Origin: a virus
DNA: 64,000 nucleotides
Direction: 5' to 3' (one strand)
Virus record (IMG/VR): IMGVR_UViG_3300028114_000957
Location: 1 to 64,000 of that record
Positions 971 to 15,229 of the stretch are shown here, piece after piece. How positions within the stretch are numbered: position 1 is the stretch's first letter; each line of letters begins with the position of its first letter. Both the position numbers and the translations under genes were made by a program. The notes under the pieces are model-generated. The model saw nothing but the letters and a program-made list of their open reading frames with translations, was not told the origin of the DNA and searched no databases.

Positions 971-1027
971 TTTATCAATTTATATATTAACAATATATTT
1001 ATTAATGAGGTAAACTATCCTTTTGGA

Positions 1028-1035
1028 TATTTATA
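1028..1035 (+). promoter_or_regulatory. TATTTATA promoter-like motif
   Basis: TATTTATA on the coding strand, 28 nt before the ATG at 1064 that opens the terminase/portal gene block. It matches the motif found before most virion transcription units here. Confidence 0.5.
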
Positions 1036-1063
1036 CAAAAATAACTTATTAAGAAAAACACAA

Positions 1064-2392
1064 ATGGCAGATTTAAAAGCACTTGGAAGTGAAAAATTAC
1101 AAGGTATGGACAAAATTAGACGTATCTTAGAAATTGCGCATTATAATGAAAAACCAAAAGAATACATTAACGAAAATGAAACTTTAAACTATACTATTAC
1201 ATTAGCCGATGGTTATACTTATGGTATTGTAAAAGAAAAATTGGGGTATATTATTAAAAAAGGAATTAATGAGTCGTTACTTGACTATTCTGACCCAATA
1301 AGACAAAGAAAATATTTTGATTCTTATTCACAAGCAATGAAGAAATTAAATCTTCACGCTAAAGAAATGAATCGCATTTACGAAAACGAAGAAGAAATTC
1401 CTTTAATTGGCGAGCAAACCGCCCCAAAAAAAAAATTCGTATTAAAATCTCCTAAACCGGCGGCTGAACCCGCACCCGAAGAACCTGCAGCGCCAGCTCC
1501 ACCTGCACCTGAAGCGTCAGCCCCTCCTGCTCCTGAACCTACAGGTATGGAAGGAGAAATGCCACCAGCGGAAGGTGGTCCTGAAATGGGTGGCGAAATG
1601 CCACCGATGGGTGAAGAACCTACAGGTATGGAAGGTGGAATGCCACCTATGGGAGGTGAAGAAGAGACAATGGGTGGAATGCCACCTATGGGAGGTGAAG
1701 AAGAACCAATGGGTGGAATGCCTAATATGGGTGGTGAAGGTGAAGAAGGAGGGTCTTTTAAAACAATTCAAAGATTAACGGGTAAATTATCACAAAAATT
1801 AAGAGCATATAACAACCAAGATGAGGATGGATTGGATTCCCAAGACATTAAATATGTTATCAATATGGTATTATCAGCATTAGATTTAGAAAAATTGGAT
1901 GAAGATGATAAAGAAGATATTTTATCAAAATTTGAAGAAGTTGATATGTACGGTGATGAAGGTCCTGAAAGTTTAGACTTTGGTGGTGATGAAGATATTG
2001 AATTTGGTGAAGAACCACCGATGGGGGGTGAAATGCCACCAATGGGAGATGAAATGCCACCAATGGGTGGTGAAATGCCGCAAGAACCAAAAGAAAATAT
2101 ATTTGGTGAATCAAGAGTTGAAAATGTTTTGAAAGGATATTTTAGAGTTACTGAAGATGAGTTACCAATTTTGGAAGAAAAAAGACAAAAAGATTATATC
2201 AAAAGTAAACTTACAAAATTAAAGGCTAAAAAAGAATTAGAAGAATTAACTGAAACAAGATACCAATTGGAAACTGCAAACAGACTTTTAAATGAAGGGG
2301 CTCAGTTTGTTGGTAAAACTAATTTAAGTAATTTAATTTTTAATCGTAGAGGTCAACAAATTAAAATCGATAGAAAAGGAAACGTTATATGA
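1064..2392 (+). CDS. Virion-type protein with Pro/Gly/Met/Glu repeats
   Basis: 442 residues, not recognised as a named family. A folded N-terminus (about 1-125) is followed by a Pro/Ala-rich hinge (125-165), then imperfect repeats of the PPMGGE type (about 165-230, and again 320-345). An acidic segment and a charged helical C-terminus (360-442) close the protein. The Met/Gly/Glu/Pro repeats resemble the low-complexity tail of the portal in this window. The gene is first in a unit leading to terminase, and the next gene starts inside its stop (ATGA at 2389), so translational coupling is likely. A head-assembly or packaging role is inferred from position only. Confidence 0.6.
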   Translation: MADLKALGSEKLQGMDKIRRILEIAHYNEKPKEYINENETLNYTITLADGYTYGIVKEKLGYIIKKGINESLLDYSDPIRQRKYFDSYSQAMKKLNLHAKEMNRIYENEEEIPLIGEQTAPKKKFVLKSPKPAAEPAPEEPAAPAPPAPEASAPPAPEPTGMEGEMPPAEGGPEMGGEMPPMGEEPTGMEGGMPPMGGEEETMGGMPPMGGEEEPMGGMPNMGGEGEEGGSFKTIQRLTGKLSQKLRAYNNQDEDGLDSQDIKYVINMVLSALDLEKLDEDDKEDILSKFEEVDMYGDEGPESLDFGGDEDIEFGEEPPMGGEMPPMGDEMPPMGGEMPQEPKENIFGESRVENVLKGYFRVTEDELPILEEKRQKDYIKSKLTKLKAKKELEELTETRYQLETANRLLNEGAQFVGKTNLSNLIFNRRGQQIKIDRKGNVI

Positions 2393-2808
2393 ATTTAATT
2401 TATATAAATGAATTAGGACCAAACTTTAGAGGTGATAACATTTATGAATTTATTTTTTCTGATGTTGACGATGCGTATGGTGAAGATTGGGATGTTGAGC
2501 CGGCTGCCGGTAGACCATCACCTCCTAAAATTGACTTTATAAAAAAAGTTGGGATTTTAAAAAATTCAGATATACAATTGGATTTGGTTCAAAATTCAGA
2601 CTTTTTTTGTGTGTATGATGCGGTTGATGGGGTTATTTCTTTGGGGTGGGAAAAATCAGACTCAGACGAAATAACTGTTTTCAAAAAGAAACGATTAGTT
2701 TTTCAATTTGGAGAAAGTATTGAAAATGTTGAAAATAAATTATACGAAAGAGATGTCGTATTAAATTGGGAAAAAAATTTAGTATCAAATGAAACATATG
2801 AATTATAA
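2389..2808 (+). CDS. Conserved-position hypothetical protein
   Basis: 139 residues, not recognised. It starts in a 4-nt ATGA overlap with the upstream gene and its 3' end overlaps the next gene, so the three are probably one translated block. The sequence is acidic and predicted soluble, with alternating hydrophobic strands (LVFQFG, FFCVYDAV) that suggest a compact beta-rich fold. There is no signal peptide or membrane segment. Its place just before terminase suggests a head or packaging accessory protein, but nothing in the sequence proves this. Confidence 0.55.
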   Translation: MNLIYINELGPNFRGDNIYEFIFSDVDDAYGEDWDVEPAAGRPSPPKIDFIKKVGILKNSDIQLDLVQNSDFFCVYDAVDGVISLGWEKSDSDEITVFKKKRLVFQFGESIENVENKLYERDVVLNWEKNLVSNETYEL

Positions 2809-3598
2809 ACTTCAAAGATTACTCCACGAAGGGTTTTCAATGGGAACTTTAGAAAAGTTATCAAACGGACAATTAAACTTACTATATGGTAAGATTATGG
2901 AACAGGCTGGAGTATTAAATGTGAAAAAAGGCTCTGATGATGAAAATAAAGCTAAGGCATCAGGAAAAGCGTTTGTTACATATGAAGAAGAACTTGAAGA
3001 AGATATGGAAGACCCTATGGACTTCGAAATGGGAAAAAGAACACAAAGCCCTAAACAAGTTGGACCAGGAACTGATGATGGTCAAGATAGTTATGGTGAC
3101 GGAATGCCAACAGAGTCTGAAATGTATGAAAAGGCCGTATCAAAAAAACAAAGAGGTTTAATGGGTGCTGCTTATTCAGTTGAAAAAGGTTATAAAAAAA
3201 TGTCCGATATACCAAAAAGTTATAGAGGTAAAGTTAAAGATGTTGTTAAGTCTATGACAAAAAAACAAATCAAAGATTTTGCAAGCACATCCGATGATGA
3301 ACTAAAAGAAGGGTTTGGAGACATTTTTTTCAAAAAACAAAAAAGAGAATTTGAAAGTATGGTGATGGATGCCGATGCCAAATATGAAGAAACAGGTAAT
3401 TGTCATTATGTTGTTGATGGTAACTATGGAATGTATGTTACAGATGATATGACAGAAAACGAAGATAAAGTAGTATATGATACTTGTGAAGATGAAGTAG
3501 GTAATTTGGAAGAAAGTATTTTAAACATTATTCAAAAACATATTCCTCCACACTTTACAAAAAAAGAACTTTTAAGAAACTATAGAAATAGAATTTAA
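2798..3598 (+). CDS. Putative internal head protein with cleavable-type leader
   Basis: The frame is open from an ATG at 2789, but the start at 2798 is preferred because it gives the leader MNYKLQRLLHE-GFS. That short basic amphipathic helix ends in LHE, the (L/I)xE signature cut by T4-type prohead proteases. Similar leaders occur on other proteins in this window. The middle is acidic and polar (about 50-120) and the C-terminal part (about 190-240) has a beta-rich stretch with YVVDGNYGMYV. It overlaps the previous gene by 11 nt and lies 6 nt before terminase. The function is unknown; packaging into the head is inferred. Confidence 0.55.
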   Translation: MNYKLQRLLHEGFSMGTLEKLSNGQLNLLYGKIMEQAGVLNVKKGSDDENKAKASGKAFVTYEEELEEDMEDPMDFEMGKRTQSPKQVGPGTDDGQDSYGDGMPTESEMYEKAVSKKQRGLMGAAYSVEKGYKKMSDIPKSYRGKVKDVVKSMTKKQIKDFASTSDDELKEGFGDIFFKKQKREFESMVMDADAKYEETGNCHYVVDGNYGMYVTDDMTENEDKVVYDTCEDEVGNLEESILNIIQKHIPPHFTKKELLRNYRNRI

Positions 3599-3604
3599 AA
3601 ATGA

Positions 3605-5380
3605 ATGTCGTTATCAAAAGAACAAATATTATTAGAGTATGCTAAGTGTGTAAATGACACACCATATGCGCTTAAAACATATTTGCAAACTTACGACAAC
3701 ACACAATCTAAATACGTTCCATTAGAATTATTTAACGACCAAGTTACTCTTGTAAAAGACTACGATACGGCTGAAGAAAATATTGCATTAAAGTATCGTC
3801 AGGCTGGAGTATCAACCGTTACATCGGCTTGGGCATCTAAAAAATTGGTTTTTGCTAAAAAATCAAAACCAGAAAAAATCCTAATTATTGCAAACAAATT
3901 GGATACTGCTGTTGAAATGGCAAATAAAGTAAGGGCTTTTGTTGAACAATGGCCTTCTTGGTTAGGTGTAGGATTTTCATCTGAAAAAAATGCGGCAAGA
4001 CACTTTAAATTAAGTAATGGTTGTGAAGTAAAAGCCGTTGCAACATCAAAAGATGCTTTACGTGGATATACACCAACAATTCTTATTTTTGATGAGGCCG
4101 CTTATATTGACGCTGATGAAGACTTTTGGTCTGCATGTATGGCGTCTTTATCTACGGGTGGTAAAGTAATTGTAATTTCCACACCAAATGGATTTGACCC
4201 AATTTATTATTCAATTTATTCACAAGCAATCAAAGGAATGAATGACTTTAAGATTACTGAAATGTTTTGGTTTCGTGACCCAAGATATTCTAAAGATTTT
4301 AAGTTAATTAAGTGTGATGATATAATTCACTATATGTTAAATAGAAATGAATATAAAGATGATGAAATAATATTAGATTATTCAAATATAAAAGTATCCG
4401 ATAGAGATTTTGAAGAAATAAAAGAAAAACTAAATCAAGGGTATAAAGCGTATTCTTCTTGGTTTGAATCGATGTCAAAAAAATTAAAGTTTGACAAAAG
4501 AAAAATTTCACAAGAGTTGGAGTGTAACTTTTTAGGTTCGGGGGATAACGTAATACCTCCTGAAACAATGAAAAAAATAAAAGACAATTTTATTAAAGAA
4601 CCTGAAAATAAATTTATGGGCGGTGTATTGTGGCAATGGAAAGAACCGGTTGCAGGACACAGATACATAATGGGAATGGATGTTTCAAGAGGTGATAGTG
4701 AAGATTTTACAACTTTTATTATTATCGATTTTGATGAAAGAGAACAAGTTTTAGAATATATTGCAAAAGTTCCACCTGATATTGTTGCTGAAATCGCCTA
4801 TAAGTGGGCAACAATGTATAATGCATTTATTGTAACGGATATTACCGGTGGTATGGGTGTTGCAACATCAAGAAAGTTACAAGAGTTAGGTTATAAAAAT
4901 TTATATATAGATGGAATAAATCCTGCAGATAAATGGAAGTGGGACCCAAAACAAAATGACAAAATACCAGGAATTAATTTTAACTCAAAAAGAGTTCTTA
5001 TTGTTCAGGCGTTTGAGGAAGCTTTAAGATTTGGGTTTGCTGTAAGGTCTCAGAGGTTGTTTAATGAACTTAATACTTTTGTTTATGTGAATGGACGACC
5101 TGACCACCAAAAGGGTCAACACGATGACTTAATTATGGCAATGGCAATGGCCATTTATGTTGGGGAATCTTCTTTTGCTCAACTTGAAAAGGCCACAGAA
5201 CAGGCAAAAGCGATGATTGATTCTTGGACGACAGATAAAAATGTATTTAGAGAATCATCACAAAATTTTAACCCTTCAATTCCGTCTCAAACCGATATGT
5301 ATAATAGTAGAACGTATTCGGGACCAACAAAAGGTGATTATGAAAATTATTCTTGGTTATTTGGTGGTAGAAGAGTTTAA
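3605..5380 (+). CDS. terL: Terminase large subunit (T4 gp17 type)
   Basis: 591 residues, close to T4 gp17 (610). It is the DNA-packaging motor ATPase and headful nuclease acting at the portal. The Walker A-like loop is at 65-71 (RQAGVST), and Walker B plus the catalytic Glu are at 159-165 (ILIFDEA). The C-terminal RNase H-like nuclease shows its acidic residues at Asp359 (MGMDVSRGD), Asp412 (IVTDITGG) and Asp507/508 (HDDLIMAMA). The start at 3605 is used; an ATG 4 nt upstream is out of frame. No small terminase subunit is recognisable beside it. The portal follows after 33 nt. The identification is firm. Confidence 0.95.
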   Translation: MSLSKEQILLEYAKCVNDTPYALKTYLQTYDNTQSKYVPLELFNDQVTLVKDYDTAEENIALKYRQAGVSTVTSAWASKKLVFAKKSKPEKILIIANKLDTAVEMANKVRAFVEQWPSWLGVGFSSEKNAARHFKLSNGCEVKAVATSKDALRGYTPTILIFDEAAYIDADEDFWSACMASLSTGGKVIVISTPNGFDPIYYSIYSQAIKGMNDFKITEMFWFRDPRYSKDFKLIKCDDIIHYMLNRNEYKDDEIILDYSNIKVSDRDFEEIKEKLNQGYKAYSSWFESMSKKLKFDKRKISQELECNFLGSGDNVIPPETMKKIKDNFIKEPENKFMGGVLWQWKEPVAGHRYIMGMDVSRGDSEDFTTFIIIDFDEREQVLEYIAKVPPDIVAEIAYKWATMYNAFIVTDITGGMGVATSRKLQELGYKNLYIDGINPADKWKWDPKQNDKIPGINFNSKRVLIVQAFEEALRFGFAVRSQRLFNELNTFVYVNGRPDHQKGQHDDLIMAMAMAIYVGESSFAQLEKATEQAKAMIDSWTTDKNVFRESSQNFNPSIPSQTDMYNSRTYSGPTKGDYENYSWLFGGRRV

Positions 5381-5413
5381 AATATTATAAAATCAACTAT
5401 TTTAAAAAATAAA

Positions 5414-8185
5414 ATGGCAGAAGAAAAATATACAGTTTGGCAAAGATTAGGTAAAGTTTTTGGACCAAATTCAACAATGGACCAACAGTCCCCTGTTTTT
5501 AAATTCGATAAAAAAGAACTTTTAAAAACACCAATAAAACAAGATTACGAAAGAGAAAAACTACAGGCTCAACAAACAATGTACATTGGTCAACAATGGC
5601 AAAAAGTTGAAAGTAACCTGTATCAACAGGCAGTATATTATGAACCAACAAGAATGGCTTCATATTATGATTATGAGTCAATGGAATATTGTTTAGCGGG
5701 TGACACTAAAATTGCAACTCCAAGTGGTTTTGTAACAATCAAAGAGTTAGCGGAAAAAGGTAGAGATTATGAATTTATTACTTATGCGTACGATTACAAT
5801 CTTAAAAAAGTGGTACCTGCAATTGCAAGAAATGCACATTACACTAGAGATGAAATGACTTATAAAATTACCTTTGATGACAAAAGTTTTATTATTGCAA
5901 CTTGGGAACACCAGTTTATGAAAAGAGATGGTTCATTTGAAAGGGTTATGAACTTGAAACTGGGGGATTCAATGATGCCGTTTTATCGTAAATCATTCTT
6001 TAATAATCAAAAATATAATTGGGTTTATACGTGTAATTCAAATGAGGGTCATAATGGATGGATTTCCGAACATAATTTAATTGCTGAATGGTTTTATGAT
6101 AAAAAAATAAATAAGGATGAAGAAGTTCATCATATAGATTTTGATGGTAAAAATAATTTACCTGAAAATTTACAAATAATGAAAATATCAGAACACAGAG
6201 CATATCACGCAAAAATAAATAATGAAAAATTATGGTCTAATCCTGATTATAGAAAAAAAATGTCAGAAGTTGCAAAAAGAAAAGGTAAATTAGTTTGGGG
6301 AGGAAGACGTAGTGGTGACAAAAATCCTGCATATATACAAATTGGTTGGGATAATATTATTGAAACGGCAAGAAAAATAAAAACTTTAAAAGGAACCTCT
6401 AAAGAATTAAATATATCTTATCGAAAATTACAAAGAGAAATTGTATCAAATGGGTATAAAGATTGGAATACTTTTTTGATGGCATATGGTATTAAAAAAT
6501 CACCGTTATCGACCGCAAAGGCAAAAAATGACGTAATTAATCTAAACCACAAAATATTATCAATTGAACCTTATGGTGTTGTTCCTGTTTATGATTTAAC
6601 GGTTCCAGGGTATAAAAATTTTGCAACAGATTCTATTTTTTCACATAATACTCCTGAAATTTCGGCAGCATTAGACATTTATGCTGAAGAATCAACAACA
6701 CCTGATAAAGATGGACACATTCTTCAAATTTATTCAGAATCAAAAAGAATCAAATCAGTTTTAACCGACTTATTCAACAATAAGTTAGATATTAATACAA
6801 ACTTACCAATGTGGATTAGAAATACGTGTAAGTTTGGTGACAACTTTGTGTATTTAAAATTGGACCCAGAACGAGGTGTTGTTGGTTGTCAACAATTACC
6901 TAACATTCAAATTGAACGTTTAGAAAAAGGTATGAAATTCCAACCTGAAAAATATTCTGCAGAAATTGAAAATGATGCGTTGAAGTTTACTTGGAAGGAA
7001 AAAAATATGGAGTTTAATACTTGGGAAGTTGCTCACTTTAGAATTTTAGGCGACGACAGAAAACTACCATACGGAACTTCAATGTTAGAAAAAGCACGTC
7101 GTATTTGGAAACAACTTTTGTTATCTGAAGACGCTATGTTGATTTATCGTGTATCAAGAGCTCCTGAAAGACGTGTATTTAAAGTTTTTGTTGGTAATAT
7201 GGACGATAAAGATGTTGATGCATACGTACAAAGAGTTGCAAACAAATTTAAAAGAGACCAAATTGTTGACCAAAAAACAGGAAATGTTGATATGAGATAT
7301 AATCAAATGGCGGTAGACCAAGATTACTTTATTCCTGTAAGAGATATGGCAGCCCCTGAACCAATAACAACATTAGCAGGAGCTCAAAACTTGGCTGAAA
7401 TTGCAGATATTGAATATATTCAAAAGAAATTAGTTACAGCATTAAGAATTCCAAAAGCGTATTTAGGATTTGAAGAGGCTGTTGGTGATGGTAAAAACTT
7501 ATCACTTCTCGACATTAGATTTGCAAGAACAATCAACCGAATTCAAAAATCTATGATTGCAGAAATGAACAAAATTGCAATCATTCATTTATTTTTATTA
7601 GGGTTTGAAGATGAATTAACAAACTTTACTCTTGGACTTACAAATCCGTCAAAACAATCTGACCTTCTTGGTATAGAACTATGGAAAGAAAAAATCACAT
7701 TGTTTAAAGATGCTGTTGCACCAATTCAAGATAGTGTTGCTCCTGTATCTGCGTCTTGGGCCAAAAAACATATTTTAGGATTTTCTGATGATGAAATTAG
7801 ACTTGATTTACAACAACAAAGAATTGAAAGAGCGGTATCTGCCGAGTTAGGTAAAACTGCTGAGGTAATAACTAAAACAGGATTATTTGATACTCTTGAT
7901 TCATTATACGGTAAAAAAGATGTGCCAGCCGCTGGTGGTGAAGCCGGAGGGGCGGCACCTGAAGGAGGAATGCCGCCTGAAGAAGGAGGAGGAGCACCTC
8001 CTGCACCTGAAGCTCCTCCAGCACCTGAAGGTGGAGGGGTAACTCCTGAAAGTTTTAACAAAAAAGATTTAAATTTAATTTTAGAAAATACTTTTTTTGA
8101 TAAGGACAACACTTTAGATTTATCAAAAGGACGAATGTCCCTAAATGAAATAGATGATAAAATTAAAAACTTATTGAATAAGTAA
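5414..8185 (+). CDS. Portal protein (T4 gp20 type) interrupted by an intein
   Basis: 923 residues encoded. Removing the predicted intein (residues 93-412) leaves a 603-residue portal, a typical gp20-like size. The extein resumes with TPEISAALDIYAEEST and continues with the portal core (DDRKLPYGTSML, RAPERRVFKVFVGNM). The dodecameric portal forms the unique head vertex and channel through which terminase packs DNA. After the core comes a Pro/Gly/Ala/Glu-rich stretch (about 835-880) and a conserved-looking helical tail. The order terminase-portal-protease-scaffold-capsid follows T4. No Shine-Dalgarno is present; the leader is A-rich. Confidence 0.93.
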   Translation: MAEEKYTVWQRLGKVFGPNSTMDQQSPVFKFDKKELLKTPIKQDYEREKLQAQQTMYIGQQWQKVESNLYQQAVYYEPTRMASYYDYESMEYCLAGDTKIATPSGFVTIKELAEKGRDYEFITYAYDYNLKKVVPAIARNAHYTRDEMTYKITFDDKSFIIATWEHQFMKRDGSFERVMNLKLGDSMMPFYRKSFFNNQKYNWVYTCNSNEGHNGWISEHNLIAEWFYDKKINKDEEVHHIDFDGKNNLPENLQIMKISEHRAYHAKINNEKLWSNPDYRKKMSEVAKRKGKLVWGGRRSGDKNPAYIQIGWDNIIETARKIKTLKGTSKELNISYRKLQREIVSNGYKDWNTFLMAYGIKKSPLSTAKAKNDVINLNHKILSIEPYGVVPVYDLTVPGYKNFATDSIFSHNTPEISAALDIYAEESTTPDKDGHILQIYSESKRIKSVLTDLFNNKLDINTNLPMWIRNTCKFGDNFVYLKLDPERGVVGCQQLPNIQIERLEKGMKFQPEKYSAEIENDALKFTWKEKNMEFNTWEVAHFRILGDDRKLPYGTSMLEKARRIWKQLLLSEDAMLIYRVSRAPERRVFKVFVGNMDDKDVDAYVQRVANKFKRDQIVDQKTGNVDMRYNQMAVDQDYFIPVRDMAAPEPITTLAGAQNLAEIADIEYIQKKLVTALRIPKAYLGFEEAVGDGKNLSLLDIRFARTINRIQKSMIAEMNKIAIIHLFLLGFEDELTNFTLGLTNPSKQSDLLGIELWKEKITLFKDAVAPIQDSVAPVSASWAKKHILGFSDDEIRLDLQQQRIERAVSAELGKTAEVITKTGLFDTLDSLYGKKDVPAAGGEAGGAAPEGGMPPEEGGGAPPAPEAPPAPEGGGVTPESFNKKDLNLILENTFFDKDNTLDLSKGRMSLNEIDDKIKNLLNK
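5690..6649 (+). other. Intein with HNH-type endonuclease domain, in the portal gene
   Basis: 320 residues, in frame with the portal. Block A begins at Cys93 (CLAGDTKIAT). Block B is ATWEHQFM. The C-terminal blocks are VYDLTVPGYKNFATDS and the splice end SHN, followed by Thr413 as the +1 nucleophile. The central part has an HNH_3-like motif (EEVHHIDFDGKNNLPENL, about 236-253), so this is a full homing intein rather than a mini-intein. The catalytic residues for splicing (Cys1, block B His, penultimate His, terminal Asn, +1 Thr) are all present, so it should be active. The insertion point lies in the conserved EY|TPEIS segment of the portal. Confidence 0.92.
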
Positions 8186-8186
8186 G

Positions 8187-8194
8187 TATTTATT
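8187..8194 (+). promoter_or_regulatory. TATTTATT promoter-like motif
   Basis: TATTTATT begins just after the portal stop and ends 13 nt before the ATG at 8208. It belongs to the recurrent motif class and would imply a very short leader. Confidence 0.4.
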
Positions 8195-8207
8195 ATAAAA
8201 AATTATT

Positions 8208-8945
8208 ATGGCAACTTTTGGTGAAATTAAAACTAAAATAGAAGAAACTTTTATCAATTTATATGGTAAAGATGAGTTTAAATATTTTTCTAATCAATTT
8301 AGAACTATTGTATTAGAAAATAAGGATATTGCAGAATTGTATTACATATATGATGATTTAACTGAAAACAAAGGTATGTCATCAGATTTGGTAAATGACT
8401 ATGTAAATGAATCTGTTGAATATTCACAAATTTTAGTAGAAAATAACACAAGAGTTTTGAATAAAATTGGTTCTTGGATTAACGCAATTGACTTACACAA
8501 CAACTCAAGTAACAAATACGAAACAATTGATACTGTCATATATAATAAGTCTATTAAAAATTTAGAGTCAATTTTAGAATCCAAAAAACAAATATCTAAA
8601 GTTTTAACAACAAACAAAATAGAAAAAACTATTTCTGAATCAATCAATTTACCTTTAGAAACAATGTTAAAGGTTGCAAACTCAAAGTTAAATGAAGAAA
8701 TTTCTACATTATCTGAAAGTGAAAAAAATGAAATAAAAGAAATTGTTTTTTTATCAAAAGATGAGTTAGAGTTAAGAATGGTAAGATTAAAAGAATCTAT
8801 TGTTGATAGTTTGAAAGTAAAGTTAAACGAATCAACTGAAAATGATTTAAAAAATACAATAGAAAAAACTGTAGATAAAATACAGAATTCACCAGTAGAT
8901 TTTTACAACTACTACAAGTTAAAGCAACTTCAAGAAGGTTTATGA
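8208..8945 (+). CDS. Helical hypothetical protein
   Basis: 245 residues, not recognised. It is almost entirely helix-forming and rich in Glu, Lys, Asn and Ser, with long heptad-like stretches (about 100-240) that suggest a coiled coil. There is no Cys cluster, membrane segment or enzymatic motif. It sits between the portal and a two-helix membrane protein, whose ATG overlaps its stop (4 nt), so the two are translationally coupled. A core or scaffold-type structural role is possible given its position, but this is inference. Confidence 0.5.
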   Translation: MATFGEIKTKIEETFINLYGKDEFKYFSNQFRTIVLENKDIAELYYIYDDLTENKGMSSDLVNDYVNESVEYSQILVENNTRVLNKIGSWINAIDLHNNSSNKYETIDTVIYNKSIKNLESILESKKQISKVLTTNKIEKTISESINLPLETMLKVANSKLNEEISTLSESEKNEIKEIVFLSKDELELRMVRLKESIVDSLKVKLNESTENDLKNTIEKTVDKIQNSPVDFYNYYKLKQLQEGL

Positions 8946-9193
8946 TTCAATTCTTTAAAAATATGATGGAAGGTGCCAACGGAGGTATATCTTCAAAAAG
9001 ATTTATTGGTCTTTTGTGTAGTATTTCTTTAATTGCCGCTTTATTTGTTTCTTTGTTCAGTTGTGGGAAATATGAGGCACCTGAAATTTTAATAGAAACT
9101 ATCGGTTTATTGGCCTTTGGAACTTTAGGTCTTACTTCTGTTGATTTTTTTACCCACAAAAAAAAGGTAGATAAAAATCAAGAAGATAAATGA
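8942..9193 (+). CDS. Small two-helix membrane protein, holin-like
   Basis: 83 residues. A short polar N-terminus is followed by two hydrophobic segments: about 21-42 (FIGLLCSISLIAALFV and on) and about 48-68 (ILIETIGLLAFGTLGL and on). A Lys-rich tail ends the protein. Size and topology fit a class II-type holin or another small inner-membrane phage protein. No endolysin was recognised next to it, so lysis is only a suggestion. It starts within the stop of the previous gene, and its 3' end overlaps the convergent bS21 gene by 16 nt. Confidence 0.55.
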   Translation: MIQFFKNMMEGANGGISSKRFIGLLCSISLIAALFVSLFSCGKYEAPEILIETIGLLAFGTLGLTSVDFFTHKKKVDKNQEDK

Positions 9194-9369
9194 TTTCTTT
9201 TCTTTTGAAGGTAAGCCGCCTTTATTTTTTGTTTTCTATTTCTAACAGATTTTTTTTCAAACTCTTGTCTATCTCTTAAAAATTCTAATTGTTTTGTTTT
9301 ATAAACTTTAAATTTATATTGTTTTAACGCTTGCTCAATATTGTTTTTTTTAACTTCAATAATAATCAT
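9178..9369 (-). CDS. rpsU: Ribosomal protein bS21
   Basis: 63 residues, the normal bS21 length. The family pattern is clear: MIIIEVKKNNIEQALKQYK, then a KTKQLEFLRDRQEFEKKSV core, then a basic tail with AAYLQKKRN. bS21 sits on the 30S platform near the 3' end of 16S rRNA and affects translation initiation. A Tyr at residue 53 lies where bS21 of flavobacterial ribosomes has the Tyr that contacts the masked anti-Shine-Dalgarno. The gene is alone on the minus strand between plus-strand head genes and has its own upstream TATTTATA motif. An AAGGG tract lies about 11 nt before the start, unusual for this window. Phage bS21 genes are known from large phages; replacing the host protein is the usual hypothesis. 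Confidence 0.9.
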   Translation of the reverse strand: MIIIEVKKNNIEQALKQYKFKVYKTKQLEFLRDRQEFEKKSVRNRKQKIKAAYLQKKRNHLSS

Positions 9370-9389
9370 AAATTTTTTACCCTTTTTGA

Positions 9390-9397
9390 TATAAATA
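9390..9397 (-). promoter_or_regulatory. TATTTATA promoter-like motif (minus strand)
   Basis: TATAAATA on the plus strand, so TATTTATA reading toward bS21, 20 nt before its ATG. Confidence 0.45.
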
Positions 9398-9415
9398 TAC
9401 GAACTTTTTTAGGTT

Positions 9416-9444
9416 TTGACAAATTCTTTTATAATTGTTATATT
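9416..9444 (+). promoter_or_regulatory. Host-type promoter candidate TTGACA-N17-TATATT
   Basis: TTGACA at 9416-9421 and TATATT(TT) at 9439-9444 are separated by exactly 17 nt. Seen as a Bacteroidota promoter, it is TTG-N20-TAnnTTT. It lies 30 nt before the ATG at 9475. The same spacing recurs before DNA polymerase (46125) and the SNF2 helicase (54134). Confidence 0.5.
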
Positions 9445-9474
9445 TTATAAAAATAAACCTCTTACATATGAAAA

Positions 9475-9924
9475 ATGAAGAAAGGAAAAACATCAAAACT
9501 AAACATTTTTGATGATGCAAAATGTCAATATGGAACAGTCGATTCCAAAAATTTTAAATCAATTTATTTAATTTTACAAACGTGGGTTGAACCAAAAGAT
9601 GATTACACAAACTGGGTTTCAATCACAGGAAGTATAAAAAGACAAATATTACACACATTACTTGAAGTTGTAGACCATAAAATTTTTGAAAAAAAATATA
9701 TAGTAGACTTGGACCTTAGAACAAGTGGACTTCAAAAAAACAAAAAAAGTTTTTTAAATTTAGAAGTAACACTTTTTATTCACAACGATACTTACGATTT
9801 TAAATCTTTAATTTTAAGGTCAAAAATAAAAAATATTTTATCTGCAATTTATAAGGATGATTTAAAAAATTCACTTTATTTCACATTAAGTAAGACAAAA
9901 TTGGCAGAAACACAAGAAATATAA
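9475..9924 (+). CDS. Hypothetical protein with own host-type promoter
   Basis: 149 residues, not recognised. It is basic, with alternating strands and helices (ITGSIKRQILHTLLEVVD, KSFLNLEVTLFIHND), and looks like a small soluble alpha/beta protein. No Cys motif or membrane segment is seen. Its promoter looks like the host sigma type rather than the virion-gene motif, suggesting expression earlier than the neighbouring head genes. An ATG at 9468 is in another frame and closes quickly, so 9475 is the start. It lies divergent to bS21 and 20 nt before the prohead protease. Confidence 0.55.
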   Translation: MKKGKTSKLNIFDDAKCQYGTVDSKNFKSIYLILQTWVEPKDDYTNWVSITGSIKRQILHTLLEVVDHKIFEKKYIVDLDLRTSGLQKNKKSFLNLEVTLFIHNDTYDFKSLILRSKIKNILSAIYKDDLKNSLYFTLSKTKLAETQEI

Positions 9925-9932
9925 TATTTATT
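9925..9932 (+). promoter_or_regulatory. TATTTATT promoter-like motif
   Basis: TATTTATT overlaps the end of the upstream gene and ends 12 nt before the ATG of the prohead protease at 9945. Confidence 0.4.
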
Positions 9933-9944
9933 AATAAAAATATT

Positions 9945-10658
9945 ATGAAAATTTTAGGACCAAAAGATACGGGTAAAGGAATTCTTGTTGAATGGGATGC
10001 AGGAATTATAAATCCAAACGAACCAAGAAACCAAAATATAATTAGAGAATCATACGGACAACTTGACCATTCAAAACCATTTGTTTTTTATGCAACACTA
10101 CAGAAATACGGTGTTCCAAATAGAAACGGAAGAGTTTATCCCGAAAAAATATTAAAAAGAGAATCTGAAAAATACCAAGATGTTATCAAAAGAGGAATGT
10201 CTATATCAGAACTTAATCACCCTGAATCATCGTTAGTAGATTTAGATAGAGTATCTCACCTCATTACTGAAACGTGGTGGGAAGGAAATATTTTAATGGG
10301 TAAAATTAAATTATTAACTAGCCCCGGTTTTCACGAAAGAGGAATAGTAACATCAAAGGGTGATGTTGCCGCAAATCTTATGAGACAAGGAGTCACCATG
10401 GGAGTATCTTCTCGTGGAGTCGGGTCTTTGGTAAAAAAGGGTGACGAAAACGAAGTACAAGATGATTTTGAGTTAATTTGTTTTGACCTTGTATCTTCAC
10501 CATCAACACCTGGAGCTTATCTATATTTAAATGCTGAAGACAGACCAAGATATGAAGAAAAATTGGCTGAACACGAAAATACATATGGTGGTGGTAATAG
10601 TGGTTTAGATAAATCTGTTGACTTAATGAAAAGATTATCGGATTATTTAGGTAAATAA
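9945..10658 (+). CDS. Prohead maturation protease (T4 gp21 type)
   Basis: 237 residues. This serine protease of the prohead core cleaves scaffold, capsid and internal proteins after (L/I)xE before DNA packaging. Family marks are the opening beta segment with NRNGRVYP (59-66), the catalytic His in ISELNHPE (His92), the Ser in TMGVSSRG (Ser155/156), and Asp181 in ICFDLVSSPS. The length matches gp21 (212) with a modest extension. It is followed by a small gene and then the scaffold and capsid genes, as in T4. Possible targets with matching sites are seen in the capsid protein and several small proteins of this window. Confidence 0.9.
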   Translation: MKILGPKDTGKGILVEWDAGIINPNEPRNQNIIRESYGQLDHSKPFVFYATLQKYGVPNRNGRVYPEKILKRESEKYQDVIKRGMSISELNHPESSLVDLDRVSHLITETWWEGNILMGKIKLLTSPGFHERGIVTSKGDVAANLMRQGVTMGVSSRGVGSLVKKGDENEVQDDFELICFDLVSSPSTPGAYLYLNAEDRPRYEEKLAEHENTYGGGNSGLDKSVDLMKRLSDYLGK

Positions 10659-10668
10659 TATTAATAAA

Positions 10669-10878
10669 ATGGATGAGAAGTATTTTGTAGCAAAAATCAC
10701 AACTGATATGGTTGATGATAACACAGGAAAAATTAAAAAAATGAGAGAAGAAAAACTTGTTAAAGGTTTTTCACCAACGGATGTTGAGGCGAAAGTCACA
10801 AAAGTTTATGAAACTTATACTTTAGATTGGCGTATAACCGCTATTGTTGAAAGTAAGATTGATGAAGTGATTGAGTAA
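10669..10878 (+). CDS. Small protein, DUF4494-like
   Basis: 69 residues. It resembles the short Bacteroidota DUF4494 pattern: a strand with a K-[IV]-x-x-D core, a KK-x-x-E-x-x-LV segment, then FSPTDVEAKVTKVYE and a final strand. The match is by eye and moderate. It lies 10 nt after the protease gene and 22 nt before a strong terminator, so it ends this transcription unit. The function is unknown. Confidence 0.5.
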   Translation: MDEKYFVAKITTDMVDDNTGKIKKMREEKLVKGFSPTDVEAKVTKVYETYTLDWRITAIVESKIDEVIE

Positions 10879-10899
10879 TTTTTTTATTATCTAATGATG

Positions 10900-10925
10900 A
10901 GGTCCCCAAAAGGGACCTTTTTTAT
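10900..10925 (+). terminator. Rho-independent terminator
   Basis: Perfect 7-bp stem AGGTCCC / GGGACCT with a CAAAA loop, followed by a T-rich tract. It separates the protease unit from the scaffold/capsid unit. Confidence 0.85.
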
Positions 10926-10971
10926 TTTATGGGTTTTTTGTGTTAAAATAAAACTTTTTGGAATGTAGATA

Positions 10972-10979
10972 TATTTATT
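10972..10979 (+). promoter_or_regulatory. TATTTATT promoter-like motif
   Basis: TATTTATT lies 31 nt before the ATG at 11011 and downstream of the terminator at 10900, the expected place for the scaffold/capsid promoter. Confidence 0.5.
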
Positions 10980-11010
10980 ATAAAATAAACGCAAATATTA
11001 ATGCTTTTTA

Positions 11011-12501
11011 ATGAGTAACAGAAAAACAGAATCCTTAGTCGAAGAGGCTTTATTACAAATGAAGTCTATTGAGGAAGCGATTAGTGAAAATGCAAAAGGA
11101 ATACTTGCTTCAACTATGAAGGAAGAAATCGGCGAATTAGTAAGAGAATCTATTTTAGGTTCTAAAAGGTCTTTAAGGGAACAATCACAAGGTGGTGAAG
11201 AACCACAAGAACCAGAACAAGAAGGCGAAGAAGATGTGTCTGCTGAAGAGGAAGTTGTAACACAACAACCTGAAGTAGGTGCTGATAATGGTAAAGGTGC
11301 GATGCCACCATCAGGTGAAGAATTACCTCCACTTGATATGTCAAACGCTTCAATGCCCGAGTTAATGAAAGTTTTCAAGGCTATGGGTGATGAGGATGGT
11401 TTTATTATCAAAAAAGATGGTGATTATGTTCATTTAAAAGATGGTAAAGCAAATACTGAATATTTAATCAGTTTAGCGGCAGAAGAACCCGAACAACCAA
11501 TGGAACAACCAATTGAACAAATGGCTGAAAACACAACATATGAGTTGGTTTTTGAAGATGATTCAATGATGGGAGGTATGTCAGAACTTGACTATAGAGA
11601 AGGTATGGGTCATATGGACGAAGACATGTACGAAATGGACTACAACGAAGGTATGGGTCATATGGATGAAGACATGTACGAAATGGACTACAACGAAGGT
11701 ATGGGTCATATGGATGAAATGTATGAAGATATGGATGAAGACATGTACGAAATGGACTACAACGAAGGTATGGGTCATATGGATGAAATGTATGAAGATA
11801 TGGATGAAGACATGTACGAAATGGACGACCAAGTTTATGAAATCGACCAAGAATCATTGGAAAATGTTGTTGAAGCTTTTAAAGCGAAAGGAAAAATCGG
11901 AAAACTTAAAACTAAGATTTATCCTTCAAAATTAAAGCATGGTGTTACTGAAACTGATGAGGATGAAATCTCAGATGGTTGGATGGACGAAGAAGAAGAT
12001 GATGATGATGATGTAGAAACTGCTGAAGCTGCTAGAACTTATGGAAATGGTTCTAAAAAAGGTAGAGGTTTAAGAAAGGCAATCACTCCAAACAGAAATT
12101 TAACTTTTGAGTCTCACGAATTTGAAACTTTAAAAGAAAAAAATGAAGAGTATAGAAAAGCATTAGACTTTTTTAGAAATAAATTAAATGAAGTTGCAAT
12201 TTTCAATTCAAACTTGGCTTACGCTACACGTTTGTTTACAGAACACTCAACAACAAAACAAGAAAAAATCAACATTCTTAGAAGATTCGATAATGTAGAC
12301 TCTTTGAAAGAATCAAAAACACTTTATAAATCAATCAAGGAAGAATTAGGTGATACACCAAATTCAGTAGTAACTGAATCAATTACACAAAAAGTTATTA
12401 AAACTCCAAGTAATGGTTCATCTTCTAACTTGATTGAATCTAAAGCTTATGAAAATCCTCAATTTATGAGGATGAAGGATTTAATGTCCAAAATAAAATA
12501 A
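11011..12501 (+). CDS. Prohead core scaffold protein (T4 gp22 position), with tandem repeats
   Basis: 496 residues, strongly acidic. It lies between the prohead protease and the capsid protein, where T4 has gp22. The N-terminal helix is followed by Pro/Glu/Gln-rich sequence. Residues 197-274 are four tandem Met/Asp/Glu/Tyr repeats of the form EGMGHMDEDMYEMDYN, two of 16 and two of 23 residues. A second acidic patch and a helical C-terminus (about 365-496) follow, with KNEEYRKALDFFRNKLNEV. Several (L/I)xE sites (for example SLRE-QSQ) suit degradation by the protease. The assignment rests on position and composition rather than on direct similarity. Confidence 0.7.
   Translation: MSNRKTESLVEEALLQMKSIEEAISENAKGILASTMKEEIGELVRESILGSKRSLREQSQGGEEPQEPEQEGEEDVSAEEEVVTQQPEVGADNGKGAMPPSGEELPPLDMSNASMPELMKVFKAMGDEDGFIIKKDGDYVHLKDGKANTEYLISLAAEEPEQPMEQPIEQMAENTTYELVFEDDSMMGGMSELDYREGMGHMDEDMYEMDYNEGMGHMDEDMYEMDYNEGMGHMDEMYEDMDEDMYEMDYNEGMGHMDEMYEDMDEDMYEMDDQVYEIDQESLENVVEAFKAKGKIGKLKTKIYPSKLKHGVTETDEDEISDGWMDEEEDDDDDVETAEAARTYGNGSKKGRGLRKAITPNRNLTFESHEFETLKEKNEEYRKALDFFRNKLNEVAIFNSNLAYATRLFTEHSTTKQEKINILRRFDNVDSLKESKTLYKSIKEELGDTPNSVVTESITQKVIKTPSNGSSSNLIESKAYENPQFMRMKDLMSKIK
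11599..11832 (+). repeat. In-frame tandem repeats, 48/48/69/69 nt
   Basis: Four consecutive in-frame units at 11599, 11647, 11695 and 11764. The last two carry an extra 21-nt insert coding DEMYEDM. The copies are nearly identical at the DNA level, including third positions, so the expansion is recent. They encode the acidic Met/Tyr repeats of the scaffold-position protein. Confidence 0.9.
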
Positions 12502-12535
12502 AAAAAATAAAATAAACTCTAAAAAAAATTTAAAA

Positions 12536-14422
12536 ATGGGAGCATTATTAGAATCAGGTCTTGTTGGTAACATCGGGTTAAAACACCTTAAAGTTATCAA
12601 AGAAGATACAATTAACAAATGGGATAGATTAGGATTCCTAGACGGTCTTAAAGGACACATCAAAGAGAACATGGCACAGTTATATGAAAACCAAGCGTCT
12701 CACCTAATTAACGAAGCTGCGTCTACAGATAGCTCAGGTTCTTTTGAAACTGTAGTTTTCCCTATCGTAAGACGTGTATTCTCTAAATTGTTGGCTAACG
12801 ATTTAGTTTCTGTACAAGCAATGAACTTACCTATTGGTAAATTGTTCTATTTTGTACCTAAAATCCAAGGATACTCTGGTGGTACTGTTCAAAATAATTT
12901 GGGTATCACTTCAGGAACACATTATGGACCAATCGGTTCACCAAGTATGCAAGGACAAACTAACGATGGTTATAATAACACAAATGGTGATTACAATCCT
13001 TCTTATACTAGAAGTCTTTATGATTTATTTTATGAAGGTTCTGAACCAGGATTGAATCCATCTGGTTTATTCGATTACTCAAAAGGTCAGTTTGTAACTG
13101 TAACAGGTTCTACACCAACAGTTGCTTGGTCAAATGGAAGTCTTATCGCATCTGCATATACAACAGCTGTAAGTGCAATTGCGGGTGTTGAGTATAGAAA
13201 AATCCTTGTAGCTATGTCAGGATTTTCTTCTGCGGGTGTTGGTAAATTAATTGGACCTGATGGTCAAGAAATTGATAACGAAGCGTTTTTATCTAATTTG
13301 GTATTGTATACTGAAAGTTCAGCAGCAGCTGCTAACCTTGGGACATCTACATACACACCATTATTATTCAGAGTGGTTACTCAAAAATATGGTCAAGGTA
13401 TTGTAGGACCAACTTCAACAAGTACTTCAGCCCCTTTTGGTAGTGGATTTGCAAGTTCTACAGCAGGTAACGGAGGTTCTTATGATAATATCTGTTCTCA
13501 AACAGGTTTTATATATTTAGAAATCGACGCACAAGTACCAGTATGTGTATCTTGTTCTAACGCACAAACTATTGATGGTTATTCAGGAGCAACTCTTACA
13601 AGTGCTTGGTCTGGAGCAGGTGCTAACACAGTTATCAAGGCGGCTTACAGACGTTACAAAGAACTTGAATTCGAAGACCAAATTGGTGAGGTTTCTTTCG
13701 ACCTTGAGTCAGTTACTGTATCTGTGACAGAAAGAAAACTAAGAGCACAATGGTCTCCTGAATTGGCACAAGACGTTTCTGCATTCCACAACATCGACGC
13801 TGAAGCTGAATTAACAGCTTTATTGTCTGAGCAAGTTGCTGCAGAAATTGACCGTGAGATTCTTCGTGACCTTCGTAAAGGAGCGGCTTGGAACTTACGT
13901 TGGGATTACAACGGATGGAGAAGATTGTCTAACACAACTTCTTACACTCAAAAAGACTGGAACCAAACTTTGATTACAGCAATCAACCAATTGTCAGCAC
14001 AAATCCACAAGTCTACACTTCGTGGTGGAGCTAACTGGATTGTTGTTTCTTCTGAGGTTTCTGCAATCTTTGATGACCTTGAGTACTTCCACGTATCAAA
14101 CGCATCTCCTGAGCAAGACCAATACAACATGGGTATTGAAAGAGTTGGTACATTAGCAGGTCGTTACCAAGTATATCGTGACCCTTACTTCCCAGCAAAC
14201 CAAGTATTGTTAGGACACAAAGGTACATCACTTCTTGATACTGGTTACGTATATGCACCATATGTTCCACTTCAATTAACACCTACAATGTACAACCCAT
14301 TCAACTTTACACCTATTAAAGGTATAATGACAAGATACGCTAAGAAAATGGTTAACAACCGTTTCTACGGACGTATCACAGTTGATGGTGTTCGTTCATT
14401 CGACTTACAAGAATTGAGATAA
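12536..14422 (+). CDS. Major capsid protein (T4 gp23 type)
   Basis: 628 residues against 521 in T4 gp23. The HK97-fold family is recognised from the N-terminal run NKWDRLGFLDGLKGHIKENM, then ENQASHLINE-AAS, then FPIVRRVFSKLLANDLVSVQ and MNLPIGKLFYFVP. The C-terminal half has EIDREILRDLRKGA and the closing DGVRSFDLQELR. LINE-A at residues 57-61 sits where T4 gp23 is cut (LTE-A), so maturation after Glu60 is predicted. A Gly/Ser/Thr-rich region (about 110-370) is likely the surface insertion. The leader is extremely A-rich with no Shine-Dalgarno. A terminator follows. Confidence 0.95.
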   Translation: MGALLESGLVGNIGLKHLKVIKEDTINKWDRLGFLDGLKGHIKENMAQLYENQASHLINEAASTDSSGSFETVVFPIVRRVFSKLLANDLVSVQAMNLPIGKLFYFVPKIQGYSGGTVQNNLGITSGTHYGPIGSPSMQGQTNDGYNNTNGDYNPSYTRSLYDLFYEGSEPGLNPSGLFDYSKGQFVTVTGSTPTVAWSNGSLIASAYTTAVSAIAGVEYRKILVAMSGFSSAGVGKLIGPDGQEIDNEAFLSNLVLYTESSAAAANLGTSTYTPLLFRVVTQKYGQGIVGPTSTSTSAPFGSGFASSTAGNGGSYDNICSQTGFIYLEIDAQVPVCVSCSNAQTIDGYSGATLTSAWSGAGANTVIKAAYRRYKELEFEDQIGEVSFDLESVTVSVTERKLRAQWSPELAQDVSAFHNIDAEAELTALLSEQVAAEIDREILRDLRKGAAWNLRWDYNGWRRLSNTTSYTQKDWNQTLITAINQLSAQIHKSTLRGGANWIVVSSEVSAIFDDLEYFHVSNASPEQDQYNMGIERVGTLAGRYQVYRDPYFPANQVLLGHKGTSLLDTGYVYAPYVPLQLTPTMYNPFNFTPIKGIMTRYAKKMVNNRFYGRITVDGVRSFDLQELR

Positions 14423-14447
14423 TCAATTTAAAGGTTAATAAAAGAAA

Positions 14448-14475
14448 AGGTCAGAGAAATCTGACCTTTTTTTAT
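14448..14475 (+). terminator. Rho-independent terminator after the capsid gene
   Basis: Perfect 8-bp stem AGGTCAGA / TCTGACCT closed by a GAAA tetraloop and followed by a T run. It ends the scaffold/capsid unit. Confidence 0.9.
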
Positions 14476-14491
14476 TTATATAATATTTATA
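14473..14491 (+). promoter_or_regulatory. Double TATTTATA promoter-like motif
   Basis: Two TATTTATA octamers (14473-14480 and 14484-14491) lie directly before the ATG at 14495, the second ending 3 nt from it. The first overlaps the end of the capsid terminator. Confidence 0.4.
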
Positions 14492-14494
14492 ATT

Positions 14495-15229
14495 ATGATA
14501 GAAAATATTATTCAAAAAGTCATAAAAGAAATAACTTCAAGTAGATATGCTGGATATTATAATGGTCCTTTAACTATGGGTGAAATTGATTGGGAAGAAA
14601 GTGAATTAGGCCCTTTTAAAACAAAAGTTTCTAAATATTTTAATGCAGATTTAGAATACGATAGTTATGATGGTTCATTGGAATCTAATAGAAAAAATGT
14701 TAAAAACCTTGAACAAAAATCAAAAAAAATATCCCATTATAATAAAAAACACAAAAAACAAAATGATGAGGATGGAGGTATTATAAATCAAAATGCCGAC
14801 AGTAAGTTAAGAATAGTCCCAATTGAAGTAATCGGAAAAAAAATGAATGAATGGTATGATTTAAACAAAATTCCATTGAATGAAGATTTAGCCGTATGGT
14901 TTGGTAAAAAAAAGAAACCTAAAGGTTCTTCACAACCAAAAGGTCCTTGGGTTGATATTTGTAGAAAAGTAGATGGTAAACATCCTCCTTGTGGTCGAAG
15001 TGACACATCTAAAGGTTCTTATCCGAAATGTAGAGCTGCTGGGGTTGCAGGTAAAATGAGTACATCTGAAAAAAGGGCTGCATGTCAACAAAAAAGAAGG
15101 GCTGAAAAACAAGATACACAAACAGGTAAAGGTCAAAAACCAATAATGACATCATACAAACCAAAAAAGAAAAGGACTCAAAATGAGTCCTTAGAAATTC
15201 TTATAAATAAAATATTAAGGTCTATTTAA
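14495..15229 (+). CDS. Putative packaged basic protein with cleavable-type leader and Cys-containing module
   Basis: 244 residues, strongly basic. The N-terminus MIENIIQKVIKE-ITSS is a short amphipathic helix ending in IKE, a possible prohead-protease site. Residues about 140-205 hold a Cys-containing module starting GPWVDICRK, then PPCGRSD and YPKCRAAG. A Lys/Arg-rich stretch (KRAACQQKRRAEKQ) follows. The module resembles DUF5872-like segments known from phages and giant viruses; this match is by eye. Basic charge, leader and position after the capsid gene fit an internal DNA-associated head protein. Its 3' end overlaps the convergent gene by 4 nt. Confidence 0.6.
   Translation: MIENIIQKVIKEITSSRYAGYYNGPLTMGEIDWEESELGPFKTKVSKYFNADLEYDSYDGSLESNRKNVKNLEQKSKKISHYNKKHKKQNDEDGGIINQNADSKLRIVPIEVIGKKMNEWYDLNKIPLNEDLAVWFGKKKKPKGSSQPKGPWVDICRKVDGKHPPCGRSDTSKGSYPKCRAAGVAGKMSTSEKRAACQQKRRAEKQDTQTGKGQKPIMTSYKPKKKRTQNESLEILINKILRSI

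Follow-up and report, generated by a model that had tools for sequence, protein, structure and literature searches.

We identified a gene for ribosomal protein bS21 in the window, by which we mean the whole 64,000-nucleotide stretch analysed here (positions 1 to 64,000 of IMG/VR record IMGVR_UViG_3300028114_000957, a record of 77,671 bases with a single bS21 match). The protein belongs to the superfamily of Pfam PF01165 (38 bits, E 1.4e-9, cut-off 27; 37 bits in the genome search) and matches the PHROG 'ribosomal protein S21' (E 3.2e-4). Against the NCBIfam S21p equivalog model TIGR00030 it scores 28.8 bits, 0.15 under the cut-off of 28.95, and we therefore file it in the superfamily and do not claim the equivalog. 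The ORF is no chance reading frame, given that it has relatives in 107 of 128 candidate IMG/VR stretches and a pN/pS of 0.16-0.32 against seven relatives, a range which indicates that the gene is under purifying selection. It is also the sole minus-strand member of the non-overlapping ORF set from 212 to 15229. A preliminary description of this DNA had called the gene a short but clear bS21, isolated on the opposite strand, and both points are borne out.

The gene is embedded among structural genes (Table 1), and both of its flanking genes lie on the opposite strand. A protein like the convergent 83-aa one also adjoins bS21 in two related phage loci, L051 and L376. An insert of about 320 residues, in frame and placed between MEY and TPEIS, interrupts the portal gene and is similar to HNH homing endonucleases; the portal of L051 is uninterrupted, and the insert of the window looks like a portal intein. 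At the scaffold position, the window encodes tandem MDYNEGMGHMDEDMYE-type acidic repeats, and L051 has other repeats in the same place. The major capsid protein, whose best relative is 42.5% identical, is probably T4-like, judging from its matches.

Table 1. Features of the bS21 locus and other features of the window discussed in the text.
Feature	Position	Strand	Remarks
Large terminase	3605-5380		
Portal	5414..8185	+	Conserved context; interrupted by intein-like HNH insert
Convergent 83-aa protein	8942..9193	+	Hydrophobic stretch; overlaps bS21 3' end by 16 nt
bS21 gene	9178..9369	-	63 aa, ATG start, 19 K/R vs 6 D/E
Short A-rich bS21 leader AAAAAGGGTAAAAAATTT	9370..9387	-	Shine-Dalgarno pairing -5.1 kcal/mol
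-7-type promoter box TATATTTATA for bS21	9390..9399	-	Putative, sequence pattern
Shared core TTGTCAA (minus) / TTGACAA (plus)	9416..9422		TTG -33-like for both putative promoters
-7-type box TATATTTT for divergent neighbour	9439..9446	+	Putative, sequence pattern
Divergent neighbour, 149 aa	9475..9924	+	No Pfam/PHROG match
Prohead protease	9945..10658	+	Conserved context
Acidic repeats, scaffold position	11011-12501	+	
Major capsid protein	12536..14422	+	Conserved context; relatives in 1,613 phage records
Two glycosyltransferase domains	34934-36571	-	
Fe/Mn superoxide dismutase	50530-51249	-	
SNF2-type helicase	51262-54126	-	

The gene of the window is a phage bS21 of the kind already described in 2022 by Chen et al. 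(PMC9723584), who reported 47 genomes of phages with Bacteroidetes hosts in which a reverse-strand bS21 lies in the structural block, carries an aromatic residue at position 54 and is transcribed with late structural genes. They proposed that the phage protein is taken up into host ribosomes, where it selects phage transcripts (PMC9723584). The window shares with these phages the reverse-strand bS21 within a terL/portal/protease/MCP block, the hypothetical neighbours on the opposite strand, the aromatic residue (Tyr54), a GC content of 31.0% (31.0-33.7% in the phages of Chen et al.) and a tail sheath gene, which fits a myovirus as in their case. In contrast, the record of the window measures 77.7 kb and is perhaps a fragment, whereas the published genomes are complete at 293-331 kb, and the 64-kb window yielded no tRNA while those phages have 5-25. 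The kind of gene and its context, the observation on Tyr54 and the idea of a hijack were thus all in print in 2022; the details added here are the control region, the closely linked neighbour, the likeness of virus leaders to flavobacterial ones and the Shine-Dalgarno (SD) sequence on some phage bS21 genes.

To place the gene among its relatives, we drew on three partly overlapping sets from IMG/VR, retaining the best 80 of each scan; besides the scan mentioned above, an alignment-based scan confirmed 348 of 570 candidates and a third one 171 of 179. Because the same contig had been fetched twice for several loci, all leader, protein and intergenic counts refer to distinct sequences, and the protein counts and the tree exclude proteins shorter than 54-55 aa, those with X and near-duplicates. 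One locus (L166), in which no bS21 was detected, was dropped before counting. In a tree of 135 thinned rows and 64 columns (55 phage, 74 cellular, 6 chromosomal paralogues), all 55 phage rows form one group among Bacteroidota bS21 with an SH-aLRT of 88, which is under the star of the tool, and the window protein falls into a starred phage group of 30 rows. This supports a Bacteroidota origin of phage bS21, although with few columns and one non-Bacteroidota row the donor is not nameable. The preliminary description had likewise expected a bS21 of Bacteroidota type, and a position remote from Bacteroidota bS21 was not seen in this tree. Flagellimonas/Allomuricauda chromosomes (L082-L088, L312) carry extra bS21 paralogues that lie near the phage group but outside it; these lack a strong SD, keep Tyr54 and have an RNT segment like that of phage bS21. 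The ORF downstream of the L082 paralogue resembles, as we take it, proC.

Among solved structures, the window protein scores best with 9i5v (37 bits, organism not shown) and F. johnsoniae 7JIL (35 bits, 47% identity to its bS21), the next match having 23 bits. It is of the same family as the F. johnsoniae bS21 studied by McNutt et al. (2023, PMC9976891) and has the equivalent of its Tyr54, but differs by a one-residue deletion near residue 9 and by KTKQ in place of KTGT in helix 1. After this one-residue gap, Tyr53 of the window aligns with F. johnsoniae Tyr54 and is by alignment the predicted A1534-stacking Tyr, so the preliminary placing of Tyr53 where flavobacterial bS21 has its anti-SD Tyr stands. 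Position 54 is aromatic in all 75 distinct phage proteins (Y 73, F 1, H 1); in 92 distinct cellular bS21 it is Y in 82, F in 4, R in 3, H in 2 and a gap in 1. The wider expectation that residues in contact with rRNA are kept thus holds for Tyr54, the sole contact residue compared. Helix 1 is another matter. Phage bS21 has K27 in 69 of 75 and Q28 in 71 of 75 distinct proteins, whereas in the cellular proteins position 27 is G (76/92) and position 28 mostly T (35/92) or V (31/92). Phage proteins further have F (35/75) or Q (10/75) at position 21 and V or I (71/75) at position 23. This matches the divergence that Chen et al. reported (PMC9723584).

The bS21 gene and its divergent neighbour are separated by 105 nt, and this gap reads as TTG-N20-TATATTTATA toward bS21 and TTG-N20-TATATTTT toward the neighbour, both TTG elements lying within one core, each followed by a 20-nt spacer. 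Going by this promoter-like layout, the two genes appear to have near-symmetric divergent promoters with a common TTGTCAA core. The putative -7 boxes resemble the Bacteroidetes promoter consensus TTTG/TAnnTTTG (PMC6847099, PMC9723704), with a final A or T in place of G. Where a close neighbour homologue is present, 51 distinct intergenic sequences could be compared, and 43 of them contain such a core, TTGWCAA. The pattern TTG-N18-22-TAnnTTT was found on the bS21 side in 39 of 51 (shuffle mean 2.8, maximum 8), on the neighbour side in 33 (mean 7.9, maximum 16) and on both sides in 23 (mean 0.5, maximum 2), counts that are inflated by related sequences and from which loci with less than 60 nt upstream were dropped. 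Counted by a second rule, the figures were 36, 29 and 20 of 47, respectively. In the more distant group B this second rule gave 5 on the bS21 side, 17 on the neighbour side and 5 on both, of 24, and there the bS21-side pattern (5/24) was not above shuffles (mean 2.3, maximum 6). The words 'promoter' and 'intergenic' are absent from the main text of Chen et al. (PMC9723584), and the preliminary description contained neither the near-symmetric promoter region nor the linked divergent neighbour.

Across the record, 12 of 66 ORFs have the core TATTTATA in the 60 nt upstream, where 0.8 would be expected. These include bS21, the tail sheath gene and a head-tail adaptor-like gene; an exact copy before the capsid gene was not found. 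Being common to bS21 and virion genes, TATTTATA fits late expression. As a candidate late signal, the T4-type promoter TATAAATA was set aside in favour of TATTTATA, since it precedes 3 of 66 ORFs (expected 0.8) as against 12.

In F. johnsoniae, rpsU has an exceptionally strong SD that is read by ribosomes lacking bS21 (PMC9976891), and in many Bacteroidota rpsU stands out by an SD below -13 kcal/mol (McNutt et al. 2023, PMC9976891). In the parts of the main texts covered here, the literature on phage bS21 holds no analysis of leaders. We scored pairing with ViennaRNA duplexfold, unlike the free_scan of PMC9976891, dropping leaders shorter than 45 nt; 16S tails were read in 11 of 15 bacterial genomes searched, and the best of three tails was used, so that tails are not genome-matched. 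Among 97 distinct cellular bS21 leaders, two of them those of paralogues, 21 pair at -13 kcal/mol or lower, from -13.6 to -21.4, with one mock window at -10, and 76 have no strong SD. Outside these 97, one of the ten leaders L082-L091 is strong, that of the Selenomonadales row. Of 85 distinct phage bS21 leaders four reach -10, all at -12.2, with no mock window doing so, and the next best stands at -6.2 (canonical tail). The window leader, at -5.1, ranks fifth of 66 ORFs and lies far from the values below -13 of F. johnsoniae rpsU; its mRNA probably starts near 9387, as we infer from the -7 box coordinates in PMC6847099.

The four strong phage leaders belong to one clade and can be explained by one change (support 100/99 in a 52-row tree of bS21 plus neighbour). 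Scanning IMG/VR by pattern with one form of the start peptide returned 14 contigs, 12 of the SD clade and 2 in which the match is not bS21, against 0 with a scrambled SD. In a 166-kb record of this clade, bS21 is the sole ORF at or below -8 among 149 (160 kb sampled; 0 mock), and in a second record 1 of 44 ORFs is (1 mock); in G142 one mock window likewise reaches -10. Farther away, a 735-kb phage with another gene context has a bS21 SD of -12.1, second of 159 ORFs in the 100 kb sampled, without a clear general SD excess (5 of 159 ORFs vs 6 mock windows at -8; 3 vs 1 at -10). In this record (LR756501) an 81-aa ORF, with an SD of -12.7, tops bS21. Judged by predicted pairing, an rpsU-type SD is missing from most sampled phage bS21 genes and present in at least two lineages. 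The weak leader of the window suggests that its bS21 gene may bypass the autoregulation of host bS21. Given the strong SDs of one clade and of the 735-kb phage, such a bypass is not general, and since 76 of 97 host leaders lack a strong SD, rpsU autoregulation may be absent altogether from the host of this phage. We also considered whether the SD-clade phage G140 uses SDs generally and rejected this, AGGAGG-N3-12-ATG having 6 sites there against 7 in the reversed control; in nine other records the balance varies (e.g., 9 vs 4 in G144). Likewise, the site AGGAGGTGATATG, 1.4 kb from bS21 in L051, turned out to lie inside the portal coding sequence.

The claim that the phage genes lack SD motifs is generally true: over the 66 ORFs of the 77.7-kb record (ORFs below 60 aa left out), median SD pairing is -0.5 kcal/mol against -1.6 for mock windows. 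The one exception is a phage Fe/Mn superoxide dismutase (SOD), whose leader is the strongest of the 66 (-14.5). We considered it as a second SD-regulated gene and judged the pairing to be chance: among 10 SOD-bearing records it is not conserved, being present only in the record of the window and in G003, which has an identical bS21. The leaders of seven others score between -6.9 and 1.6; the tenth record (L384) breaks off near a contig end, and its first ATG is internal to the gene. A further point against the SD is its position, upstream of the TATTTAT element. Of 18 related phage records, 10 encode a SOD domain, which in five of them forms the end of a 361-362-aa ORF.

We also compared the leaders of ORFs of at least 100 aa from the record of the window (60), the phage G140 (129) and 200 kb of a flavobacterial genome, G021 (163), which stands in for the true host and encodes a bS21 almost identical to the F. 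johnsoniae protein. All three sets show an A-rich, SD-less profile in which G is scarce, with A at -3 in 0.62, 0.56 and 0.64 of leaders, respectively, and 1, 0 and 0 SD hits at -8 against 1, 0 and 4 mock hits. The same leader profile tunes initiation in F. johnsoniae (Baez et al., PMC6847099). No phage-specific mark is visible in the base profile relative to G021. The suggestion of the preliminary description that phage mRNAs are recognised differently through bS21 hence finds no support here, phage and flavobacterial leaders sharing one base profile.

The 149-aa neighbour is presumably bS21_CN (fam498) of Chen et al. It matches no Pfam or PHROG family, and a tblastn search of 50,697 phage records gave no hit. 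Of the 85 distinct bS21 leaders, 77 have a divergent homologue of this protein beside them (52 close ones and 25 distant ones, in two phage groups); none was seen for the other 8, among which L026 ends 163 nt upstream. Conversely, among the best 80 of at least 555 relatives, 79 loci were long enough to judge, and every one of these holds a divergent bS21. A more distant neighbour query gave 5 of 5; one of these is the contig of the query itself, and the remaining four are alike (53% identity). The AlphaFold2 model of the neighbour is confident (pLDDT 87.7, pTM 0.84). No clear solved relative of the fold was found: the best PDB Foldseek match has an E of 0.018, and the best VIA-align match is a type III secretion chaperone with a Z of 7.8, a value at which a match may reflect no more than a common arrangement. 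One clear and uncharacterised relative came from BFVD, A0A8S5L9A5 of Myoviridae sp. ctPuP5 (E 2.6e-9).

Other phage bS21 proteins occur in LR756504, LR756502, LR756501/503 and LR745206, which we take to be huge-phage records of Al-Shayeb et al. 2020. They are 47.5-51% identical to the window protein at 87-92% query coverage but have another gene context: in all 4 records examined, the 3 kb around bS21 hold no homologue of the divergent neighbour. This count leaves out LR756503 (hit H4), which has the same length and position as LR756501, and MT837542 (hit H6). The latter (L481, MT837542.1) comes from a phage collection, and its bS21 region resembles a fragment of a bacterial chromosome; bS21 there adjoins a XerC-like recombinase and an HPF-like protein, which we assume to be bacterial genes. 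A further system is that of HTVC008M, presumably a proteobacterial phage. The bS21 of this pelagiphage enters E. coli ribosomes (Mizuno et al. 2019, PMC6375957), and for huge-phage rpS21 a hijack was proposed by Al-Shayeb et al. 2020 (PMC7162821).

bS21 is the commonest ribosomal protein in phage genomes (PMC9723584, PMC9976891). As to its use, we lean, with somewhat less than even confidence, towards the explanation that late phage bS21 keeps Bacteroidota ribosomes complete during the production of virion proteins. Its basis in the sequence is the identity of the gene, the conserved Tyr, the promoter-like layout, the SD-less leaders and the linked neighbour. Late in infection, bS21 and the divergent neighbour would be transcribed from the near-symmetric promoters around one core. 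The short leader without a strong SD would be translated by replete ribosomes, bypassing the strong-SD feedback that limits rpsU in those hosts that have it. Phage bS21 would then bind to bS21-less 30S subunits and stack its Tyr on the 16S tail in the manner of the host protein. Refilled subunits could regain efficient initiation on SD-less mRNAs, including phage mRNAs generally, and with the anti-SD covered again, SD-dependent translation of host rpsU would be damped. F. johnsoniae ribosomes without bS21 or its C-terminus are slower on SD-less mRNAs and faster on rpsU (PMC9976891), and it is because ribosomes lacking bS21 initiate poorly on SD-less mRNA that we favour replenishment. It is further favoured by the bS21 identity and its selection, the aromatic residue at position 54 in 75 of 75 proteins, the generally SD-less phage genes, a promoter element common to bS21 and virion genes, the transcription of bS21 together with late structural genes in related phages (PMC9723584), and a window leader far weaker than the strong host leaders. 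Against replenishment speak the K27/Q28 differences in helix 1, which selectivity for mRNAs or factors might explain, and the -7 boxes, whose last base is A and not the G of the host consensus.

The published alternative, that ribosomes with phage bS21 prefer phage mRNAs (Chen et al. 2022; Al-Shayeb et al. 2020), draws on the same residues: positions 21 and 23, K27 and Q28 are consistently phage-specific, and Chen et al. place the helix 1 region where mRNA would bind and report late expression with structural genes (PMC9723584). Nonetheless, phage and flavobacterial start regions are alike in base profile (60 and 129 vs 163 ORFs), so selective hijack has no leader signature, at least in the base profile that this comparison covers, and ribosome upkeep explains more than mRNA selection. 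We consider hijack unlikely, though with so distinctive a helix 1 it deserves to be kept in view. Slightly less probable, in our judgement, and the boldest of the readings, is that bS21 and its neighbour act as a refitting module, in which the neighbour helps to remove host bS21 or to load the phage protein in an active remodelling of the ribosome. The divergent bS21 at 79 of 79 neighbour loci and at 5 of 5 from the distant query, the neighbour at 77 of 85 leaders and the near-symmetric promoters would all fit such a module, as would the matching expression of bS21 and bS21_CN, the absence of bS21_CN from two outgroup phages without bS21 (PMC9723584) and the phage-encoded bS21-exchange factor speculated on by McNutt et al. 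(PMC9976891). However, the linkage may mean only that one ancestral insertion was kept by synteny, and the 80 neighbour loci are the closest of at least 555 and partly contigs already counted. Moreover, 7 bS21 leaders with upstream sequence and the 4 huge-phage records lack the neighbour (within 3 kb in the latter). The fold of this protein is without a clear solved relative and, located among head genes, the protein could belong to the virion structure. Chen et al. also suggested counter-defence, citing stalled phage protein synthesis as a defence in Cellulophaga (PMC9723584); that phage bS21 rescues translation which host defence has stalled or damaged seems to us very improbable.

A combined scheme, which we regard as doubtful, would give a two-gene module two settings. 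The neighbour would be a loading or exchange factor co-expressed from the mirror-image promoter; SD-less leaders, the setting of most lineages including that of the window, would let the phage escape feedback and, through the filling of bS21-less subunits, switch host rpsU off, and SD leaders (one clade and the 735-kb phage) would sense bS21-depleted ribosomes to turn bS21 on. The general idea of a hijack is now split into sharper choices, upkeep versus mRNA selection. A phage bS21 gene with a strong SD should respond to bS21-depleted ribosomes and one without it should not, and the linked 149-aa protein is a concrete candidate for the exchange factor that McNutt et al. speculated on.

Two features far from the bS21 locus may be added. 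The SNF2-type helicase contains an intein splicing domain (PF14890) and is apparently the site of a second intein of this phage. Within a long minus-strand block, one gene encodes two glycosyltransferase domains, in agreement with the sugar-chemistry genes of bS21 phages (PMC9723584).
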